A stretch of DNA of 64,000 nucleotides, taken from assembly GCF_014695975.1 (NCBI RefSeq), contig NZ_JACJPI010000071.1, forward strand, positions 1 to 64,000. The letters are read 5' to 3'. Numbering within the stretch: position 1 is the stretch's first letter; each line of letters starts with the position of its first letter. Source of the DNA: Leptolyngbya sp. FACHB-321. Its GTDB lineage: Bacteria > Cyanobacteriota > Cyanobacteriia > Leptolyngbyales > Leptolyngbyaceae. The position numbers were made by a program, and so were the translations under genes. Positions 7,963 to 39,007 of this stretch are shown piece by piece. Under the pieces are notes generated by a model. The model saw only the letters and a program-made list of their open reading frames with translations, did not search any database and was not told the DNA's origin.

Positions 7963-8357
7963 ATGAATCATAATGTTTCTGCTGAAGTAATCAGCAGTAG
8001 CAACCAATTAGCTGTACTACCGTGTGAACGAGATCATCGACAAGGAGCACTAGATGCCAAAGTTGTGCTGGTTACGTATGGAGATTATCAATGACCTTAA
8101 TGTGGAGAACTTTATGCTTTAATTCAAACCATTCAGAAACAGCTTTGTACACAGCAGCGTCAGAGGCAGCGTCAGCACAAGGGCAGTTCTGGCAGATGCA
8201 TGAGATGTTATTGAATCATGGGCAGAAACGAGGAGATGACTACCTGGCAGAGTACGCAGACAAGTTAGGACTGAATGTGACACAGTTTGTGAGAGAGATT
8301 GCCAGAAAAGTATATATCGACTGCATCAATCAGGATATTGCAAGCGGACCCACCTAA
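7963..8357 (+). pseudogene. DsbA-like thioredoxin-fold protein, internally deleted
   Basis: The 5' part from ATG 7963 reads like the start of a DsbA-family (thioredoxin_4) protein up to VVLVTYGDYQ, where the CPxC active site should follow. Instead the frame hits TGA. Another frame then resumes with a C-terminal segment of the same family (AASAQGQFWQMHEMLLNHG, YADKLGL) and stops at ACCTAA 8357. The active-site segment and the final substrate-binding part are missing. The gene is therefore deleted and frameshifted, and abuts a histidine-kinase tail. Confidence 0.7.
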
Positions 8358-8689
8358 TTTGTGAGATTAGCGGCACGCCGTATGCGTTACCTCCTGAAAC
8401 TGAGAATATCCTGCTGAGAATTGGGCAAGAAGCATTTACAAATGCCATTAAGTACGCTCGAGCAAACGAGATCCGGATTGATCTAGTCTACGAGTCAACA
8501 TTATGCTCTTTACGAGTTAAGGATAATGGACAAGGATTTGAAGCCAATGATACAACCCTAAAACAAGGGTTTGGTTTGTTGGGCATGACCAAACGTGCAA
8601 AACGGATTGGGGGAAAACTTTCAATTCAAAGCCACTTGGGGCAGGGAACGGAAATCATTGTATCTGTGCATCGAGAGATGACAGTATGA
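8351..8689 (+). pseudogene. Histidine kinase C-terminal HATPase_c fragment
   Basis: The frame ending at TGA 8687-8689 encodes only the ATP-binding end of a NarL-type histidine kinase: ENILLRIGQEAFTNAIKYA (N box), VKDNGQGFE (G1) and GFGLLGM (G2). It closely resembles the C terminus of the large kinase encoded at 1113-7079, suggesting a paralogous locus. No start codon or upstream domains exist, because the 5' side runs straight into the DsbA relic. Its stop overlaps the next start (ATGA), as in an original kinase-regulator operon. Confidence 0.75.
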
Positions 8690-27369: not shown

Positions 27370-27590
27370 GGAGACTGAAAACCGCTTTTTGAAACGTCTG
27401 CTGAGTTAGTGTTTCGACCTTAGCGTACGTTTCTGTTCCGATCCTATGCAATCCCCGTAGATAAACATCTGAAAACAAACCACGCGATTCATAAGCTCTA
27501 CTAACCAAGGGATTGCGATCCTCACTTTGGATGACTGCAAACTGGCACAAGGTTCCAAACCTCAATTTCACCTTTGCCCGTCTGCAGAAT
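27370..27590. other. Non-coding stretch after IS630
   Basis: No supportable gene. The segment separates the IS630 right end from the first copy of the ~60-bp repeat family. Confidence 0.4.
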
Positions 27591-27660
27591 CCGCAGCTAA
27601 CCAGTCCACCGGCGCACTTGCACAGCTGCTCCGGGGGGCAACTAACCTAGGCGATCGCTC
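27591..27660. repeat. CCGGGGTGCAACTAACC repeat family, copy A
   Basis: The segment CCGCAGCTAACCAGTCCACC, GGCGCACTTGCAC, then GCTGCTCCGGGGGGCAACTA and GGCGATCGC, is shared with the copies at 30928 and 33852. It starts and ends with CAGCTAAC/CAACTAAC, about 45 bp apart. No coding potential; function unknown. Confidence 0.6.
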
Positions 27661-28083: not shown

Positions 28084-28833
28084 TCATGCCTGACGCATGC
28101 GGCGGAGAAACGTGTGGAGTCGATCGCTCTGCGGATTCGTCAGTACCTCACGCGCTGGACCCTCTTCCACAATCAAGCCCTGATCCAAAAACAGCACGCG
28201 ATTGGCAACGTCGCGGGCAAACTGAATTTCGTGAGTGACGACCACCATCGTCATGCCCTTATCGGCAAGCTGCTGCATCACCTCCAGCACCTCACCGACC
28301 AGTTCCGGGTCTAAAGCACTTGTTGGTTCATCAAACAGCATAATCTGCGGCTCCATGCACAAACTACGCGCGATCGCCACGCGCTGCTTTTGCCCCCCAG
28401 ATAACTGATCCGGGTAGGCATCTATTTTGTCTGCTAGCCCTACTTGCTCCAGATAAAAGCGCGCCCGCTCCTGGCTTTCCTGCTTCGATCGGTTTAGCAC
28501 CTGCTGCGGAGCCAGCGTCAAATTATCCAGCACGCTTAAATGGGGAAACAGATTGAACTGCTGGAACACCATGCCAATTTGTGATCGCACATCGCGGAGT
28601 TGTTTTCGCGTCAGCGCTGGTTGCGACAGCTCGATACCTGTGACAACAATACGTCCCTGGTCGATCGTTTCCAACCGATTGAGGCAGCGCAGTAGCGTAC
28701 TTTTGCCGCAGCCTGACGAACCAATCACTGCCAGCACTTCAGCGCGATCGACGTGACCGCTAATCCCCTTCAGCACATGCAGGGGTCCGTAGTATTTCTC
28801 GATATGCTCAAACAGAACTGGGGGCGTGCTCAT
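28084..28833 (-). CDS. glnQ: Amino-acid ABC transporter ATP-binding protein (GlnQ type)
   Basis: A 249-residue ATPase with Walker A GSSGCGKST, Q-loop VFQQFNLFPHLSVL, signature LSGGQKQRVAIARSL, Walker B MLFDEPTSALDPE and switch His in VVVTHE. This set is typical of polar-amino-acid importers. It is divergently arranged from the fused binding-protein/permease gene at 28962, with 128 bp between. It energises uptake at the inner face of the membrane. The substrate (Gln, Glu, Arg or similar) cannot be fixed. Base composition here is visibly richer in G+C than the flanking IS-rich DNA. Confidence 0.92.
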   Translation of the reverse strand: MSTPPVLFEHIEKYYGPLHVLKGISGHVDRAEVLAVIGSSGCGKSTLLRCLNRLETIDQGRIVVTGIELSQPALTRKQLRDVRSQIGMVFQQFNLFPHLSVLDNLTLAPQQVLNRSKQESQERARFYLEQVGLADKIDAYPDQLSGGQKQRVAIARSLCMEPQIMLFDEPTSALDPELVGEVLEVMQQLADKGMTMVVVTHEIQFARDVANRVLFLDQGLIVEEGPAREVLTNPQSDRLHTFLRRMRQA

Positions 28834-28961
28834 AAGCTCAAAAAACCAAAAATGGAACTCCAGACAGATTCAGAGTTCAATGAATTAATCCAGTTATAGA
28901 TAAAATCTGTTTTACGCATCTCTCCTTTTTAGAAGAGATTGTCCTCTAGCCAATCTAAATC
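28834..28961. promoter_or_regulatory. Divergent promoter region of the amino-acid transporter
   Basis: The 128-bp AT-rich gap between the oppositely oriented ATPase and binding-protein/permease genes must hold both promoters. The poly-A/T tracts around 28880-28930 stand out from the G+C-rich genes. No operator is recognised. Confidence 0.5.
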
Positions 28962-30479
28962 ATGACAACTGTGCGCCGACTGCTGCGATCATTGCTGTTG
29001 AGTTTAAGCTGTTTGCTGCTCATTGTAAGCATGGGGCGAACGGAGAGTACCGAACTGAGGGTCGCGGTAGAGCCAGTGTATCCACCGTTCGAGTTCCGCG
29101 CTGCAAACGGCGAAATTCAGGGCTTTGACATCGACGTGATTCGGGCGGTCGGTAAAGCAGCAGGCTTTACGGTCCAGTTTCAAAGCATTGCGTTCGACGG
29201 CATGATTCCCGCATTGCAAGCGCAGACTGTTGATGCAGCGATTAGCGCCATGACGATCACGCCTGCGCGATCGAACGTCGTCACCTTCTCGCGTCCTTAT
29301 TTCAAAGCGGGCTTGGCGATTGCGGTGCGCGAAGGAACTCAGAACATTAACCGACTCGAAGACTTAAGCGGCAAGTCGATCGCCGTCCAGATTGGCACCA
29401 CTGGTGCCGATGCGGCTAAGCAAATTCCAGGGGCAACCATTCGCACGTTTAACGCCGCTGTGCTGACGCTTCAGGAACTCAGCAACGGCAATGTTGATGC
29501 CATCATCAACGACGCGCCCGTAATGCTGTATGCGATCAAAACAGGCAACCTCAAGGGCATTCGCGTTGTCAATCAACTACTGACCGAAGACTTCTACGGC
29601 ATTCCCACGCCGCGCAACTCTCCCAACTTACAGCGAATTAACCAGGGGCTTGGCACTATTTTAAGCAATGGCACTTACGCGCAGCTTTATCAGAAGTGGT
29701 TTGATGCTCAACCACCGGAACTGCCTGTCACCGCGCCTGCCTCTGCGACAGGGAATACGACCGCAATTCCCAGTTCCACTCAGGTGATTCTCGCGTCGCT
29801 GCCGCCACTGCTAGCCGGAACGCTGATCACGCTACAGCTTGCAGCGATCGCGGTCATCCTTGGCTTGGTCGGCGGCTCTCTCATTGGCATTGTCCGCTTG
29901 TCCAAAGTACGACTCCTGCGCTGGGCGGCGGCAGCGTATATTGACTTCTTCCGAGGAACACCGCTGCTGGTGCAGCTTTTTATGATTTACTTCGGCATTC
30001 CCGCCGCGTTTCAAGCGTTGGGACTCACGTTTAGCTTTGACCGCTTCCTAGCAGCGATTATCGCTCTGAGCCTCAATTGCGCAGCATATGTTGCAGAAAT
30101 TGTTCGGGCGGGCATTCAGTCGATTGAAACGGGACAGTCCGAAGCCGCTGCATCCCTGGGACTGGATGCGATTCAAACCCTGCGATTCGTCATCTTTCCG
30201 CAAGCGTTGCGCCGGATGCTGCCGCCATTGGGCAACCAGTTCATCAGCTTGCTCAAGGACACCAGCTTGGTTGCTGTCATTGGCTTCGAGGAGCTATTTC
30301 GACGTGGGCAGCTCATTGTGGCAGAGAACTATCGCCCGTTTGAACTCTATTTCGCGATCGCGCTGATCTATCTGGCATTAACGCTGCTTTCGTCCCAAGG
30401 CTTCAGCTATCTAGAACGCTGGATGGACCCTGCTCAGCGGGGGCGAAAGCAGTTCACCAAAGAGAAGGTGCAGCTCTAG
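28962..30479 (+). CDS. Amino-acid ABC transporter, fused substrate-binding protein and permease
   Basis: A 505-residue fusion. The signal peptide is in the first 28 residues (SLLLSLSCLLLIVSMG). A family-3 solute-binding domain spans about 30-250 (LRVAVEPVYPPFEF, GFDIDVIRAVGKA, AISAMTITPAR). A His/Glu/Gln-type permease spans about 270-500 with an EAA-like loop (IQSIETGQSEAAASLGLD) and several membrane spans. The binding domain is therefore tethered outside the membrane. It pairs with the divergent ATPase at 28084 to form a complete importer. Confidence 0.92.
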   Translation: MTTVRRLLRSLLLSLSCLLLIVSMGRTESTELRVAVEPVYPPFEFRAANGEIQGFDIDVIRAVGKAAGFTVQFQSIAFDGMIPALQAQTVDAAISAMTITPARSNVVTFSRPYFKAGLAIAVREGTQNINRLEDLSGKSIAVQIGTTGADAAKQIPGATIRTFNAAVLTLQELSNGNVDAIINDAPVMLYAIKTGNLKGIRVVNQLLTEDFYGIPTPRNSPNLQRINQGLGTILSNGTYAQLYQKWFDAQPPELPVTAPASATGNTTAIPSSTQVILASLPPLLAGTLITLQLAAIAVILGLVGGSLIGIVRLSKVRLLRWAAAAYIDFFRGTPLLVQLFMIYFGIPAAFQALGLTFSFDRFLAAIIALSLNCAAYVAEIVRAGIQSIETGQSEAAASLGLDAIQTLRFVIFPQALRRMLPPLGNQFISLLKDTSLVAVIGFEELFRRGQLIVAENYRPFELYFAIALIYLALTLLSSQGFSYLERWMDPAQRGRKQFTKEKVQL

Positions 30480-31044: not shown

Positions 31045-32653
31045 CTAGACCACTGTCTCGACACATTTAACACGATTTCGTCCCGCCGCTTTAGCGACAT
31101 AAAGAGCTTGATCAACTACTTGCATGAGCGACTGACTGGTGTCCCCATGTTCAGGAAATAAACCGACCCCCAGCGAAAGTGTCGTGCGGATCGTTGCAGC
31201 ACCAAACTGCACGCGCATGGCTTGAAAGGAGCGTCGAAGCTGTTCGGCGCGCTGACAAACATCCTTCAACGTGATCGCCGGCAGCAGCAGTACGAATTCT
31301 TCACCACCGTAACGACACGCGATATCGCCTCGTCGACTGTGAGCGCGCAGCAAACGACCAAAAGCCTGTAAGACGCAATCACCACCTTGATGCCCGTAGG
31401 TATCATTGACTTGTTTAAAAAAATCGATGTCCATCAGGATCACAGCGACCGGATAAGCTGCCCGCGCCGCGCGTGCCAAATCTCGAGGGAGCGTCTCCTC
31501 AAAATAACGTCGATTGAATAAGCCCGTCAGAGCATCGCGGATCGCCTGTTCACGTAGCTGCGTTTGGAGTGCGTTGATTTCGCACAACTGGGCTTGTAAG
31601 CGTTCGTTTACCTGACGCAGTTCCAGGTCAGCTTGTTGCCGTTGAGTGACATCGCGCAAGACAAGCAAATGCCCAGTGAGACAGTTACAGTGATCGCGTA
31701 AAGGTATGACGTGTAATTCCACATAGCAGCCTGTGCTCAGCTCCAGTAGCAATTCACTCGGCACTGTTTCAGACGCTTGACAAAGCTGAGCGAGCGCTGG
31801 TCAGCTTGAGCCTAATTGCCTAAGCGGTTGCCCCAAGCAAGTGACGCTGATCCCAGTGAGCTGCTGGGCGGCTGGATTGATATCAAGCAACCGCTGGTGT
31901 AGATCTGGCACGAGGACACCATCCGACATACTCTCGCTCAACATGTCTCGTGCCACTGGTACCAGATCAAACAGACGAAAGCGAAAGAGGGTGACGAAAT
32001 AGATGAGACCAGCCAGCAAAAAGCTCATCGGCGTGAGGTTGAGACCGGCAGGCGTGAGCTTGAGCATATACGCACTACCACCGAGCAACGGGACGAGCGC
32101 TCCTGCTAACGCCAGCCGCGATTGTTGCTGCTGGAGTCGCACGGGGCGCCGCTTGCACCAGTAGCCATGAACCAGCAAGCGTATAAAGATAAACGCAGGT
32201 CATGACCCAATAAAAGCCTGGACCATGCTGGTAAACAATTTGGTTAGTGCCCTGGGAAGATGGCACAAAGCCACGCCAAACCAACTGATGCTGTTCGTTA
32301 GTCGCCACTAAAACCACATTGAGACTGGGGATTAGCCAGAACAAGACGGTGTTTTTGAGTGTGAGCCACTGCCTTTTGTGCGTGAAGTAGAGCGCAAAGA
32401 TGAGAAAGAACGTCATCACGCTGCCAGAGCCAACATATTCCCACTTAGACCAAAAGATTTTGTCCGGTAGAGCGATTGCTGCCGCTTCGAGCGCGGCAAC
32501 AGTGGCATAAACAGCAGTCGAAAGCAACAATAAAATAAACGGTCTGCTGGCAGAGGCGGCAGCACGCCGGTGCCAAGCCGCAACCGCAAGCGCAACCGCG
32601 AGCAGCGCTGTGAGGCTGAGGATGGCAAAAGAGGGATTATGGTTGAAAAGCAT
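31045..32653 (-). pseudogene. Diguanylate cyclase with 7TM sensor and PAS domain, disrupted
   Basis: On the minus strand, ATG 32653 opens a seven-span sensor of the histidine-kinase N-terminal 7TM type (IFWSKWEYVGSGSVMTFF, FWLIPSLNVVL). Near 32140 the frame shifts; the rest of the membrane part and a PAS-like domain follow (LLDINPAAQQLTG). An in-frame TGA at 31801-31803 then interrupts it. The C-terminal GGDEF domain is intact with active site RYGGEEF and I-site-like upstream region, ending at 31045. It would have made c-di-GMP from two GTP. One frameshift and one nonsense codon inactivate it. Confidence 0.85.
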
Positions 32654-32676
32654 AGTGACGCTGAGTTCTGAGACAG

Positions 32677-32714
32677 GCTCTTACCGCAAGAGCCGCCAGC
32701 GAGTGCTGGCGGCT
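32677..32714. terminator. Overlapping strong hairpins
   Basis: GGCTCTT-ACCGC-AAGAGCC (7-bp stem) overlaps AGCCGCCAGC-GAGT-GCTGGCGGCT (10-bp perfect stem); the two cannot form together. They lie downstream of the minus-strand gene at 33057 and upstream of the cyclase relic, so termination of the former is plausible. Confidence 0.5.
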
Positions 32715-33056
32715 TAGCGCTCTTTGGCTAGTCAACCAAAAGCCTTAGAAGCCTCAGCGACGGTGTCAAAAGGCTGCCTGAGGAACGGCACAGCAGGGGT
32801 TTGAGGCTCTTAAGTGCCAGAGGGTTCAACTTGTACACGCGGCTTGAGCAGCTTAACGTACTTTCGGTTCGGATGAGACTCAAACCGCCTCTATGCGGCG
32901 AAAAAAACTAGGACAGGAAGGACAGGAGCCAGTCTTGCCTGCTTAGAGCCTACGCTGGATGCTGCTGCACCTCAGACGAGGGCCCCAACCGCAAGCATGG
33001 CGTTGATGCTCAGCCTGAAGGCTGAAAGCTGCAAGGCGCTCAGGCGTGGCAGGAAA
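32715..33056. other. Non-coding stretch downstream of the hypothetical membrane gene
   Basis: About 340 bp; no supportable gene and no family-specific repeat apart from the hairpins at its left edge. Confidence 0.4.
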
Positions 33057-33686
33057 CTAGTCGAAAGAAAAGCTAAAGGGTCCGAGCGAAATCGTTGTGG
33101 ACTTGACACTGTCTTTAAGCGTTTCTTCAAGCAGGGGCATATCAACAAACCGCACTGCCATCGGGGAGCTAAAGGTGATCTCACCGAGGCGTTGGTTCGG
33201 TTGAGCGGTGATGCTTAACAAGCGCAAGGTGTAAGTATCGTCTCGGTTAAACGGTTGCAAGCTTAAGTCAACCTTGGCTTGAGGCTGGCTAAAGGTGGAT
33301 GGCTTAAGTTGGGTCACCCGATGGTGGCGATCCGCGGTCTGGACTTCGAGCTGAATGACCACGTCTTGAGCCGCTAGAGTAAGGCCGAACTCAAAGCGGT
33401 CAAAATCCTGCTTGGATTGATTCTGCACTTGCACCTGCGCTAGCTGCAAGTGGTTATAGCTGTAAGTCGTCTCACCATCAGAAATTTCAAGCTGCGCGCG
33501 CGGCAAAGCGGTGCCACCGAGGCTTTCAAACAGTGGTGCCCGCTCAACCCGACACCCAACTCTCGGTTTGCGCTGCCGGTAAGCCGCAATGAAGGCGTAC
33601 GCCAAAGCACCAATGGCACTGCCACACAGGAAGAGGAGCGTTGCGAAGAGGAGTGTGTACCCGGAAAGAGAAGCCATGTGAAGCAA
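33057..33686 (-). CDS. Hypothetical single-span membrane protein
   Basis: A 209-residue protein I do not recognise. One N-terminal membrane segment (LLFATLLFLCGSAIGALAYA) precedes a soluble domain rich in beta strands (AQLEISDGETTYSYNHLQL, FEFGLTLAAQDVVIQLEVQ), which looks immunoglobulin-like. There are no catalytic motifs. The frame is open over its full length with consistent coding character, and strong hairpins lie downstream. It is isolated from other intact genes. Confidence 0.6.
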   Translation of the reverse strand: MLHMASLSGYTLLFATLLFLCGSAIGALAYAFIAAYRQRKPRVGCRVERAPLFESLGGTALPRAQLEISDGETTYSYNHLQLAQVQVQNQSKQDFDRFEFGLTLAAQDVVIQLEVQTADRHHRVTQLKPSTFSQPQAKVDLSLQPFNRDDTYTLRLLSITAQPNQRLGEITFSSPMAVRFVDMPLLEETLKDSVKSTTISLGPFSFSFD

Positions 33687-33851
33687 GTGGCAGGCTCAGA
33701 CCGGCCTGAGGTGAATTAATCGGTTAGTGTGTATGAGCGCGCCGCCGTCGGGAAAGCGTGCCGCCGCGTTCCAGTATTACAAAGGATCGTGCAGCCTGCT
33801 GACATCACCCCAAAGTCAAAGCGCCGCTCCCAGGTAACAACCAAAAGATGG

Positions 33852-33916
33852 CTGCCATCCGCAGCTAACTAGATCACCGACGCACTGGCACTGCTGCTCC
33901 GGGGTGCAACTAACCA
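33852..33916. repeat. CCGGGGTGCAACTAACC repeat family, copy C
   Basis: CCATCCGCAGCTAACTAGAT, CACCGACGCACTGG, then GCTGCTCCGGGGTGCAACTA match copies A and B. Its right edge runs into the left inverted repeat of the 1.3-kb unit. It lies about 100 bp downstream of the lipoprotein relic. Confidence 0.6.
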
Positions 33917-35231
33917 CGAAGAAAGTGAGCATTAGTAGAAGTTAGCGAATTGACTTCATTTTAATCAAATGGCTCACTTTCACACGAATCATTGCCAGAC
34001 CCCAATATAATGTCTTACTGGGAAACGGCCTTGAAGCCAGTTTCGTTGAGGATGACCTGGTCCTCTTGGCGAACCGTTAGCTGAGTGCCCGTACCCCATG
34101 GGGTAGGATTATCTGGGCTACTAATCGGCATTTCTACAATATGAACGTACTCGCCGTTGCGCCAACCCATCGAGTTCCTACCATTGCGGCTGGTGAGTTT
34201 TCCGTTGCTCAGGCTTAGACATTCTCCCCTAGAATCACACCCCCGATAGCTTAAATTGCCGGTGCCATTGACGCCCGACCATGACCTGAAATTGCTGATG
34301 GTTGATCGTCCATTCCCCGTTAGTGTAGGTTTCGCTATCGCTCGTAGGTGTCGAAGATGCAGGTGCCGAAGAGTTGAGTACCTGTAGCTTTGTAATAATC
34401 CATGCCCGCCGGGTTTTGCCACACGGTTCGGTACTTGGACAATCAGCTAGATTGCCTTGTTCATAGGTTGCTCGCAACCGCTGACGCAAATACGCCTTCT
34501 CTTGAGAACAAATCTCAAAACGTGCAAACAGTCCTTTATACTTGACGTTGTTGTCATCGACTAAGATGACATAGCACGTCAAATCGCCATTTTGCAGCTC
34601 CTCTACGGTGCCGATCGTGGGTCTATTGTTCGATTGATTATTTTGTACGGCGGGATTGGCAGGTGCAGAATTGCCAGACTCAGCAGCCTAAGCCACTGAA
34701 GATGCCGTAGCCGCTGGAGTGCTGGCAGAACTCCCTAGCGTTACTTGAGTCGATTGTTGCGGCGACTGGCAACCATAGGCACTTATTGCTATTCCAGTGA
34801 CCAAGACCATGATCTGCGCCAAGCGTAACTTTGCAAGCACCGCAAATTGTTGAAGCGTTATAAGGTCTGATGCGAAGCATCATGATTCTCCTTGGTGAAC
34901 AAAGTAGAAATAGCAATCGAAAAGATTGAAAGATTAGAGGACTGGGAAAGCACCTATCAGAAGTCGAGGAATAGCACTCGTGACGCGTTGCTGTACTGGC
35001 GTTGTGCTTTCCCGAAATCGCGAGAACTGATTAACAGCCAACGGGTTCGACTCAAACACCTGGACTGCGAACGAGGTCATAGAGTCGCTGGCGCACGCGC
35101 AGGCTCGCAAACCCCTTGGCGATCGCGTTGTAATTGGGGTCTGGCAACGATTCGTGTGAAAGTGAGCCCTTGTATCACAATGAAGTCCATGCGATGACTT
35201 CTACGAATGCTCACTTTCTTCGTGGTTAGCT
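33908..35231. mobile_element. 1.3-kb unit bounded by ~99-bp inverted repeats
   Basis: The left arm 33908-34006 (CTAACCACGAAGAAAGTGAG ... TTGCCAGACCCCAAT) reappears as reverse complement at 35133-35231 with scattered mismatches. Each arm itself can fold (AGTGAGC with GCTCACT; AGAAGT with ACTTC). Inside are a lipoprotein relic on the minus strand and a 100-codon plus-strand frame without recognisable domain (34892-35197). No transposase is inside. It could be a non-autonomous mobile unit or an inverted duplication of a regulatory hairpin. Confidence 0.6.
34015..34884 (-). pseudogene. Secreted lipoprotein-like hypothetical protein, disrupted
   Basis: On the minus strand, ATG 34884 has AAGGAG upstream, but the signal-like segment (IMVLVTGIAISAYGCQS, with a lipobox-like Cys) is in a shifted frame. 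An in-frame TAG follows in the low-complexity linker. The mature region (NGDLTCYVILVDDNNVKYKG, LFARFEICSQEKAYLRQRLR) is readable. A second frameshift near 34270 moves the C-terminal part (LSYRGCDSRGECLSLSNGK, GWRNGEYVHIVEM) into another frame ending at 34015. Three lesions make it non-functional. Function unknown. Confidence 0.65.
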
Positions 35232-35370
35232 GCCGGACGCGCAGAAGGTCCACGCAAAAACGGGGGTTTCGCTCGACTCAAAGAGCTCAAACTCTATAAA
35301 AAAGCCGCTTTTTACGTGTCATTTAGTCCAATAGTGGTCCAGCCGTCAGAAGCAGTGGTTCTAGTGTCAT

Positions 35371-35460
35371 AAAAGAAACTCATCGATTGCTTTGCTTGAA
35401 ACCCATATGCTGCAAGGGTTTCAAGCAAATGGCTTGTTTTTACACGAATCGTTACCACAG
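35371..35460. repeat. Hairpin related to the 1.3-kb unit ends
   Basis: TTTGCTTGAAACCC (35391-35404) and GGGTTTCAAGCAAA (35416-35429) make a perfect 14-bp stem. It is followed by ATGGCTTGTTTTTACACGAA and TCGTTACCA, matching the ATGGCTCACTTTCACACGAA / TCATTGCCA tail of the 99-bp inverted repeats. This is thus a third, diverged copy of that structured unit, between the 1.3-kb unit and cas12k. Confidence 0.55.
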
Positions 35461-35531
35461 GCCTTTTTTGCCAGCTTAGTACAGGTGTAGAAATCTAATC
35501 TGCAAGAGGTCTATACTCTTCAGCTGATGCT

Positions 35532-35747
35532 GTGACTGAGCAAAAGATTTTGCGCAATTTGCAAATAGGTAGCACAAGCTTATAAAGTTGAAACCTGTGC
35601 GCGTTGCAGGGTTTGATTCACTTCCAATTGCTGTTCCTTCAATGCAGTTGGATGTCAACTTATCAGAAGCTAGAACACTAGACTGGAGCTGCTCTCACTC
35701 GTTGCGCAACTCATTTGCAAATTGCGCTATATTTTCTGCTCATTCAC
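35532..35747. repeat. MITE-like inverted repeat overlapping the cas12k 5' end
   Basis: GCGCAATTTGCAAAT and flanks at 35532-35566 are mirrored, with a few mismatches, at 35713-35747 (ATTTGCAAATTGCGC). The interior shows weaker inverted similarity. The right arm overlaps the upstream open frame of cas12k, so an insertion may have replaced the native promoter and start. Confidence 0.5.
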
Positions 35748-38235
35748 AATCGTTGCTCTTGAAAATTGTGTTGTGCGTAAAGAATTTCGTACTGCTCAAG
35801 CGCTTTTGTGTGCCAGTGACGAGGTACTCCAGATTCTATGGGAGTACACCGAGAAACACACGCTGCTCGTAAATGAGCTATTTATTGAAGTTCCTAAGCA
35901 CTTAAAGTTTGAGCAGTGGAAACAGAAGGGAACCGTTGCTAGAGAAGCTATAGAGAAAGAGATTCTTCCCCTTAAGCAGTCTGTTCGTTTTGCTGGTTTG
36001 CCAAGTCGTCTTTATGTTTCTGCCGTTTTTATCACAATTCAAGCCTATCGAGCTTGGTTAAAGCAGCAGTCAATATGGCTCTGGCAGTTGCTAGGTCACC
36101 AAAAATGGTTCGATACAATTTCATCAGGTTCTAAGTTAGCTGCCGAAACAGACTTTAGCTTTAAGCAAATCCAGGCAAGAGCACACGAGGTTTTGGAGCA
36201 AACCTAGCAAGAAATGTTTGCTTCACAAGAGCAAACACTCCAACAAGCTAATCAGCCTCAAGACGAATCAACTGTGATGGATGAGAGAGACTTACTGGGT
36301 GAGCTGCTCGATGCTTATGACGAAACCAGTGACCTCCAAACCCAACTTGCCATTGTGCACCTGCTTCTGAGTAATCTTCAAGTCGCGGAAGAGGAGCACA
36401 CCCCAGAGGCAATAGCTAAAAGACTGGATGCGAAGAAGATTGAAATTGAGCGACTTCAAAAAAAGTTAAAAGCTCGGCATCCGAAAGGGCGTGATCCACT
36501 AGGCGATCGCTTCCTTCAAGATATTGACATCGCGATTTCTGCCCCATTGCCTCGGGCTGATGCACCGGAGGAATTTGCTGCGGAATTTGATCAATGGCTT
36601 GATCAAAAGCAAATTCGCTTATTCAACCCAGCGCACTACCCGCTCCGATTTGAAACGCAAGACGACTTAATTGGGTTTCAAGTCGTGCGGGAGAAGCCTG
36701 TTGAAGCAAAGAGTTCGCAGCCCGATCAGACGTTGAAGTCTGGAACATCAAGAAAAAAGAAACGGCGCTCTATGAAGCGACGGCGAAAAATTCCCCAAAC
36801 GAGGATCTGCGTTTGTTTTCATACAATGCGTAACCTGAGGTTTGAGGTTTATTGCGATCGTCGTCAACTTCAGTACTTCAAGCAATTTTTATCGGACTAC
36901 GAAGCCTACACCAAGTCGGAGGATGAAGAATTTAGCGCACGGTCATTTCTCTTTCGCTCTGCAACAGTGTTTTGGGTTGAGGATGAGAAGTTACGTCGTG
37001 AGATGAAAAAACAGCAATGGAAGCAAGCCGGAAAGACTGACAATTTACCAGAGCTACCACCTTGGAAAACCCACCGACTTTATCTTCATGTCGCGATTGA
37101 TGATAAGCAGCTAACTGCTGAAGGGACGGAACAGGTTCGGCAAGAAAGTCTAAAAGAATATCAACAACGGCTCCAACGGAGTGAGGACAAGCTGAACAAA
37201 CTTGAAGAGCAATATCAGGTAATTCAGCAGCAGCGCCCTCTGACAACAGCCGAATCTAAAAAAATAAAGAACTAACGAAGTTCAGTTAAAAGCACTAGAA
37301 CGACAATCGAACGTTTGACTAACACTACACTCAAACGTCCAAGCAAACCTCCCTATCAAGGGCAGAAAAACAGAGTTATGGCAGTCAGCTTTGATCGCAA
37401 AGACCCAGTGACAATCGCGGTGGTCGATCAACTGCACCCATCAGATCCATTTCACTGCTCAACAGAGGAATTGCTGATTTACCATCGTACTCAGGTTCAA
37501 GCGGTAAACCGAAATGTTCGCCTATTTAAGCTAAAGCGCAGGATAAGATTGCTGACGTTACAGTATAAGCTGATCCGTTGCTTGGGAGATCTTGAAGCAG
37601 CCAGATTTCTGCTCTGGATGAATTATCAGGTAGAGAGAACAGGACACACCATTTTGTGGACTGAGTTCCAGTACCGGATGTTGAGAGTTGCGCTGGTTAT
37701 TGCTGGCATTCCAGTTCTGCTACTGCTCAACCTGGACGCAAAGGATGTGGCGAGCGACTATCAAACCGTCACAAAGCTTCACGAGCACCATAAAGAGCGA
37801 GTTAATAAACGTGCTCAGGATCAGAAACTGAAACACCGCTATCGCAGGAACTCTACAGAATCCAATACCCGGGAGTATTTAGCACGAGTCATCGCGGCTG
37901 CAATTGTCAAGTTAGCGATCGAGTTTCAAATAGGCGCTATTGTCATTCCTGATTTGAGTGACATTCGAGAAAAAGTAGAAGCACAAATTCGTGCTGAAGC
38001 TAAACGAGGGCATCCAAACAACTATGGAACGCAGGACAATTATGCCAAAGATACCCGAGATAGCTTTCACTGCTGGAACTATAGTCAACTGGCAACTTTC
38101 ATTCAGGAACGGGCAAGGAAAGATGGAGTTGCGATCGCAATCATGCCGCAGACTATTGAAGGGACGCTAACCGAAAAAGCTACCAAAATGGCAACCGAGT
38201 TCCGACCTGAGCATCTGCTTCAAGCGTCGGATTGA
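35722..38235 (+). pseudogene. cas12k: Cas12k (type V-K CAST effector), interrupted by two stop codons
   Basis: Three consecutive open segments in one frame align in order with ShCas12k as I recall it. Segment 1 (to TAG 36205): FEQWKQKG, RFAGLPSRLYVSA. Segment 2 (to TAA 37273): LLDAYDETSDLQTQ, ARHPKGRD, RFEVYCDRRQLQYFKQFL, TEGTEQVRQE. Segment 3: RPSKPPYQGQ, the RuvC-I-like strand VMAVSFDRKDPVTIAVVDQ, then IVIPDLSDIREKVEAQI and NYAKDTRDSFHCWNYSQL. Cas12k is a nuclease-dead RNA-guided protein that directs Tn7-like transposition. The whole is about 820 codons against 639 residues in ShCas12k, including about 100 extra residues after RuvC-I. The native start is unclear: no SD site; TTG 35722 or GTG 35773 are possible. 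Around 37265-37310 another frame (KALERQSN) fits the family better, implying two compensating indels. TnsB, TnsC and TniQ genes were not found. Confidence 0.9.
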
Positions 38236-38727: not shown

Positions 38728-38764
38728 GTCGCAATCGCCCTTCCGATAGCGGATGGGTTGAAGG
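38728..38764 (+). CRISPR. Single recognisable type V-K direct repeat
   Basis: A 37-base sequence, GTCGCAATCGCCCTTCCG then ATAGCGGATGGGTTGAAGG, has the layout of type V-K repeats (GTNGCAA... CCTTCC... GGTGGGTTGAAAG in AcCAST as I recall). It lies 200 bp after the tracrRNA-like end, on the expected strand. No second perfect copy follows, so the array is a relic. Confidence 0.6.
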
Positions 38765-38768
38765 GAAT

Positions 38769-38982
38769 AATTAACGTGAGTTCGGGATAAGGAATCGCTA
38801 GAAGCCCTGATTTTCTGCGGCTTGCCACCACGCTCTCGGTCAAGTTCTTGTCAATAAGTCTCACAGTTGCAAATACTTGCAGTAGCAGGTCTTATTGAGA
38901 AAGGGTGACTGGCTGGCTACTTAACTCAAGCTATTCATAGTAGGGGTTTTAGCCTTCGGCTTAACCCGAACTCACGTTAATT
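38769..38982. mobile_element. 214-bp MITE-like element inside the CRISPR relic
   Basis: AATTAACGTGAGTTCGGG at 38769-38786 is repeated exactly as reverse complement at 38965-38982. There is no coding sequence between. It begins 5 bp after the recognisable CRISPR repeat, so it probably inserted into the first spacer. Confidence 0.65.
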
Positions 38983-39007
38983 AATTTCTTCAGCCATTTT
39001 CCAAAAA

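Follow-up and report, generated by a model that had tools for sequence, protein, structure and literature searches.

A candidate Tn3-derived miniature transposon among inverted repeats near a cas12k remnant in Leptolyngbya sp. FACHB-321

A 64,000-nucleotide stretch of the Leptolyngbya sp. FACHB-321 genome, analysed here as a whole and referred to as the window, carries long inverted repeats near a cas12k remnant, and the locus raises the question of whether these repeats belong to a mobile element or to a structured RNA. A preliminary description made from the sequence alone saw foldable arms around a 1.3-kb unit with a third, diverged copy beside cas12k, and suggested that a common tail is conserved while the stems change by compensation. 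The repeats are real. Arms A (33906–34006) and B (35133–35233) are 101 nt long, 88% complementary and spaced by 1126 nt, and the third copy (C, 35365–35462) has a perfect 14-bp stem (35391–35404 with 35416–35429). The common tail also holds up: with up to three mismatches its pattern matches arms A and B and copy C and nothing else in the window, and no match was seen in shuffled sequences (0/100). The boundaries of the unit, however, were misdrawn, as it is B and C that pair up and not A and B. We propose, with a probability of about 0.9, that positions 35136–35463 are a non-autonomous miniature transposon, M1, that came from a Tn3-family transposon, and that arm A is a solo left end.

Arm B and copy C are opposite ends of a single 328-bp element, as the pair recurs, tails outward, at two other places in the genome. 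On contig C7 a C-type copy (8265–8362) and an A/B-type copy (8494–8591) lie 131 bp apart, the same spacing as between B and C in the window, and on C39 the corresponding copies (28797–28883 and 29022–29111) are 138 bp apart; the whole of M1 matches at 90% over 328 columns in C7 and at 81% over 317 columns in C39. M1 (35136–35463, plus strand) consists of a left terminal inverted repeat (TIR), a palindrome, a leader-derived core, a second palindrome and a right TIR. The left TIR, which is the tail of arm B (35136–35173, plus strand), has no mismatches to GGGGTCTGGNAACGATNCGTGTNAAA and three to the 38-bp consensus described below. The right TIR, the tail of copy C (35426–35463, minus strand), has four mismatches to the consensus and diverged outer bases, and only 27 of its 38 bases are identical to the left TIR, so that this copy of M1 may be past moving. 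The arm B hairpin (35158–35218) pairs GAAAGTGAGC at 35158–35167, which is the inner half of the TIR, with GCTCACTTTC at 35209–35218, an internal inverted copy, and the perfect 14-bp palindrome with its 11-nt loop (35391–35429) overlaps the right TIR on its inner side. The element is short and without transposase coding as far as the tested TnpA proteins show, none of which matched M1 at E≤1.

Arm A (33906–34003, minus strand) is 88% identical to M1 positions 1–98 and includes a TIR at 33966–34003 that departs from the 38-bp consensus at one position. The outer edge of arm A lies at 34003 and its body runs leftward, and no partner end was found. Because the outer edges of A (34003) and B (35136) face each other across the interval that had been taken as a 1.3-kb unit, the 33.9–35.2 kb interval is not a transposon, and what lies inside it is DNA between two elements (34004–35135). 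It contains short reading frames, and the two tested (34015–34422 and 34235–34582, both on the minus strand) have no family match. Tn3-derived inverted-repeat miniature elements (TIMEs) are reported to mobilise intervening DNA (PMC4133298; PMC13367494), and A and B are related copies in inverse orientation that flank 1.1 kb, as they would in a composite transposon (TIME-COMP). Such a composite needs two outward-facing ends, yet the sole recognisable TIR of arm A faces inward and no outer left end was found, and among the matches listed from six same-genus genomes and the FACHB-321 genome itself (40 of 74 candidates scored) none has 33906–35463 moved as a block. We regard a composite transposon as highly improbable.

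The 38-bp TIR consensus is GGGGTMTGGYAACGATTCGTGTNAAANNGRGCCATTTG, with the tail as its outer part and GGGG as the outer end of many copies. A genome-wide search for the tail, suggested in the preliminary description, recovered dispersed copies: the outer 21-mer GGGGTCTGGNAACGATNCGTG with up to three mismatches occurs at 13 sites in the genome, including the three in the window, and a reversed control gave none. At least one of the 13 TIR-like sites (C54) has by eye no further resemblance to the element. BLAST searches of the same genome (6.7 Mb in 91 contigs) gave, with the queries included, 15 matches to arm A and 27 to copy C at E≤10, and 11 and nine, respectively, below 0.01. A query spanning 33000–36200 matched in all six other genomes of the genus, with the whole or nearly whole element at 82% in G002 and G004, its right part in G001 and G003, its left end in G005, and in G006 a 65-bp stretch overlapping the junction of arm A with D1, a dispersed repeat described below. 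The idea that the copies are local and explained by one inverted duplication is thus overturned by their dispersal in the genome and the genus.

The TIR also extends beyond the genus. Its outer 26 bases are present with up to two mismatches in 13 of 144 genomes, FACHB-321 included (12 of 143 relatives), and an exact 25-base part is found in 17 stretches of a contig collection (genome_contigs). Fourteen of these are labelled Cyanobacteria (Pseudanabaena, Drouetiella, Myxacorys, Stenomitos, Phormidium and two uncultured), and the others are from an Oscillochloris MAG, Chloroflexales ZM16-3 and a MAG labelled Clostridium. There was no match in the plasmid collection by blastn, nor in viral contigs with the exact TIR pattern. 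Two genomes from different genera of the family contain related 188-bp miniature elements with the TIR of M1 (L109, 2455–2642; L099, 1747–1934) that are 79% identical to each other, and a second miniature form therefore exists.

Several loci link the TIR to a transposase. In Chloroflexales ZM16-3 (L138) two TIRs, identical to each other at 37 of 38 bases, bound a complete 4254-bp transposon in which a tyrosine recombinase gene (296 aa) is followed co-directionally by tnpA of the Tn3 family (1017 aa; NF033527, E 4.2e-201). A second pair of TIRs, in G079 (L095), bounds 5820 bp; besides genes for a tyrosine recombinase and an HTH protein, this segment has a Tn3 tnpA into which a gene for an IS5-type transposase is inserted. 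The TnpA of Myxacorys (L098) is intact (1000 aa; E 6.2e-196) and starts 331 bp from a zero-mismatch TIR, and no second TIR was found at this locus with up to ten mismatches allowed. Altogether, TnpA genes or fragments lie less than 400 bp from a TIR at nine distinct loci, seven of them identified by tblastn of 45 loci (L095, L098, L106, L110, L125, L137 and L138), with L166 and L168 in addition. The 38-bp pattern is common to L098, L110, L125 and L138; L095, L106, L137, L166 and L168 have the outer part of the TIR only (~20–29 bases), and their inner third differs. The Tn3 family is characterised by a TnpA of ~1000 aa and by inverted repeats 38 to 40 bp long (PMC7157771). The tail is a TIR of Tn3 type common to elements that encode a Tn3 transposase, and its conservation is due to its being a TIR.

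A matching transposase gene was not found in the FACHB-321 genome, where the Myxacorys TnpA has no match at E 1e-20 and gives weak fragments only. Matches at this threshold are present in 12 of 42 family genomes searched, those in G003 and G004 being at 24–28% identity only. A remnant on C73 has the same TIR together with homology to the 3′ end of tnpA, being 72% identical to L125 across 199 columns, and matches TnpA over 35 columns (E 1.3e-5).

The interior of M1 can be compared with these larger transposons. Its core (35223–35374, plus strand) is homologous to the Myxacorys leader between the TIR and tnpA, with a local alignment z of 7.8. In five copies (M1, C7, C39, G002 and G001), each locally aligned and compared with 500 dinucleotide shuffles, z ranges from 7.0 to 14.3 and the core scores above all 500 shuffles in each (5/5), narrowly so for G001 (49 vs 48). 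The right end of the C39 copy is 81% identical to L125 over 72 columns, about 34 of which are inside the inner edge of the TIR; the right-end match of M1 itself to the tnpA-3′ end is 91% over 44 columns and is mostly TIR. Because the core resembles the leader and the right ends resemble the tnpA-3′ end, the most fitting reading of M1 is a transposon that has lost its interior by deletion and now consists of leader and right end.

Tn3-type elements prefer AT-rich 5-bp targets. The five bases immediately outside 47 ends are 79.6% A/T compared to 52.8% at positions −40 to −11 (Wilcoxon p 1.5e-8, an optimistic value in that several of the ends are related copies), the set excluding degraded outer ends (the A-side of C39 and two C81 copies) and later finds. 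Position −6 is only 23% A/T, and this sharp edge after five A/T-rich bases fits a Tn3-type target. Flanking target duplications, a further check that the preliminary description had proposed, were absent despite this signature: exact direct repeats of at least 4 bp at offsets 0–2 were found at 0 of 11 two-ended elements, M1 included, a set that includes three with degraded ends and two with an end in common. TIMEs in the literature are alike in this respect, as most database copies are without direct repeats (4 of 18 have them; PMC4133298). That paper offers recombination between copies as the reason for some TIME copies without repeats, and this explanation, borrowed here by analogy, may apply to the missing duplications in FACHB-321.

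The folding of M1 is what might suggest a structured RNA, either regulatory or guide-type, kept by selection on its fold. As RNA the element folds at −115.9 kcal/mol (z −5.47), better than all shuffles (0/100 as good), and the palindrome beside the TIR is significant (p<0.05) in five of six Stenomitos C-type ends and exact in the window's copy. Some both-sided changes are also present, at 2 of the 14 C-hairpin pairs and at 8 of 96 pairs in a consensus fold of five copies. However, much of the fold comes from pairing between the two TIRs and from the palindromes, the copies differ in completeness and context, and the both-sided changes are not above those of shuffles. The proposal that the stems change by compensation is not borne out, as shuffles often equal the observed pairing: the C hairpin is 81.6% paired in seven C-type copies (171 of 500 shuffles as high) and the A/B stems 86.6% in 11 A-type copies (59 of 500), counts that do not include G003, G004, G005 and the weak C63 and C28 copies. 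The RNAalifold covariation term for the whole element in five copies is unfavourable (+3.64 kcal/mol), so that covariation analysis, also among the checks proposed earlier, gave a null result, and a scan of the whole window at the Rfam gathering cut-off returned no matches. Neither covariation above shuffles nor a known-family match thus places M1 in a structured RNA family. The earlier alternative of a transposon end or an RNA element therefore divides, the first part standing with the tail as a Tn3-type 38-bp TIR and the second, a structure-selected RNA, falling away as very unlikely. M1 is an ordinary kind of element, not a new RNA, and its hairpins are DNA inverted repeats, made by one TIR half with its internal inverted copy and by the palindrome beside the right TIR.

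The TIR-adjacent palindrome was considered as a feature of the whole family and dropped, its significance being mostly confined to the Stenomitos C-type ends. By 200 letter shuffles per end, p<0.05 was reached in three of 12 tnpA-3′ ends, in none of four 5′ ends and in one of the 16 remaining ends, compared to the five of six given above, and the palindrome is therefore lineage-limited. It may be a terminator, a binding site or simply inherited; there are six terminator-like sites in 33800–36000 where 2.2 are expected, one of them at 35422–35436.

The proximity to cas12k could suggest that the repeats are the ends of a CRISPR-associated transposon (type V-K) that carried it. The cas12k remnant (35722–38235, plus strand) is a single frame with an inner TAG at 36205 and TAA at 37273; NF038191 matches it in three pieces, there is a match to a Cas12k in the PDB, and the homology starts at about 35791, such that the right end of M1 is ~330 bp upstream of it. 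However, the TIR accompanies Tn3 TnpA elsewhere, TniQ has no match on the cas12k contig (its five genomic matches fall on C3, C81, C82, C4 and C53), and another miniature element, unrelated to M1, is located between M1 and cas12k. We therefore discount this origin almost completely, and see no functional tie between M1 and cas12k. The intervening element is 218 bp long (TGTGACTGAG...TCATTCACA; 35531–35748) and looks to have been recently active, with 95–100% identical copies on C31, C27, C53, C28 and C49. On C27 the copy runs up to the end of the contig, and on C53 it is ~280 bp from a TniQ match. Beyond cas12k, at 38756–38995, there is an inverted-repeat element (TTAACGTGAGTTCGGG...CCCGAACTCACGTTAA) that by eye is like one beside the C73 copy.

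On the other side, arm A adjoins a stretch (33848–33915) with a short dispersed repeat, D1 (33857–33915), fused to arm A at GCAACTAACC. D1, which ends in CTCCGGGGTGCAACTAACC, is also present at 27589–27647 and has 13 matches in the genome; it is inverted beside the C27 copy and by eye is partly like the tnpA leader of the Tn3 element. It was considered as an integron attC and dropped, its ends appearing unlike the attC core motif. At least 31194–33847 of the window is duplicated on C74 at about 94–96% identity, apart from 305 bp that only the window has (31778–32082). The 94% identical C74 duplicate has its stop point at 33848, at the start of the stretch that holds D1 and arm A.

M1 would best be filed as a new TIME. 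It has inverted 38-bp TIRs of Tn3 type, is short, has no transposase coding, and shares a TnpA-linked TIR and AT-rich 5-bp targets; 5-bp direct repeats at an individual copy, which fresh insertions should have, are seen at 0 of 11 but, being scarce among published copies too, are not required. TIMEs are similarly of a few hundred bp and transposase-less, with 38-bp Tn3-type TIRs, and their transcripts are predicted to fold (PMC4133298). Some keep a putative resolution site, as TIME244 does (PMC13367494). M1 differs from them in sequence, in length (328 bp vs 262 or 244), in its cyanobacterial host, in having a core related to a tnpA leader, and in the 13 TIR-like sites of its genome, whereas Pseudomonas TIMEs are usually single. 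Among the best-ranked literature on Tn3-family miniature elements in cyanobacteria and on Stenomitos transposons no title or abstract described M1.

Among larger elements, TnXax1 is the only named one in the best 15 of at least 5000 matching plasmid records, with 45% identity to the Myxacorys TnpA across 97% of its length. A tyrosine recombinase with a helper is described for the TnXax1/Tn4651 subgroup (PMC7157771), whereas L138 shows one tyrosine recombinase and tnpA, in the same direction. In Tn4430 (TnpI/irs), as in L138, the TIRs enclose a tyrosine recombinase followed co-directionally by tnpA, and the Myxacorys TnpA is homologous to the solved Tn4430 transposase (E 7.6e-66).

A plausible history for M1 can be drawn from these comparisons. 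Internal deletion of a Tn3-family transposon would have removed tnpA and spared the 38-bp TIR at each end, the left leader, and a short right end that includes its palindrome. A Tn3-family TnpA acting in trans could then bind the TIRs of M1 and join element and target through a cointegrate, and either host recombination or a site-specific recombinase would resolve this intermediate. More tentatively, and on balance doubtfully, the retained leader could still serve the tyrosine recombinase as a functional resolution or promoter site, and the elements could be portable, scattered recombination sites of an undescribed Tn3 subgroup in Cyanobacteria and Chloroflexota. If so, they could invert or delete DNA between copies, events to which the solo ends and the lack of target repeats might point.

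TIR pairing and subterminal palindromes can thus mimic a conserved RNA, and this serves as a warning for other loci. What appeared to be a structured repeat near cas12k becomes a named and testable candidate for a Tn3-type miniature transposon of cyanobacteria, and the link between its TIR and a transposase, seen in both Cyanobacteria and Chloroflexota, provides a pattern by which such remnants can be searched for and annotated.
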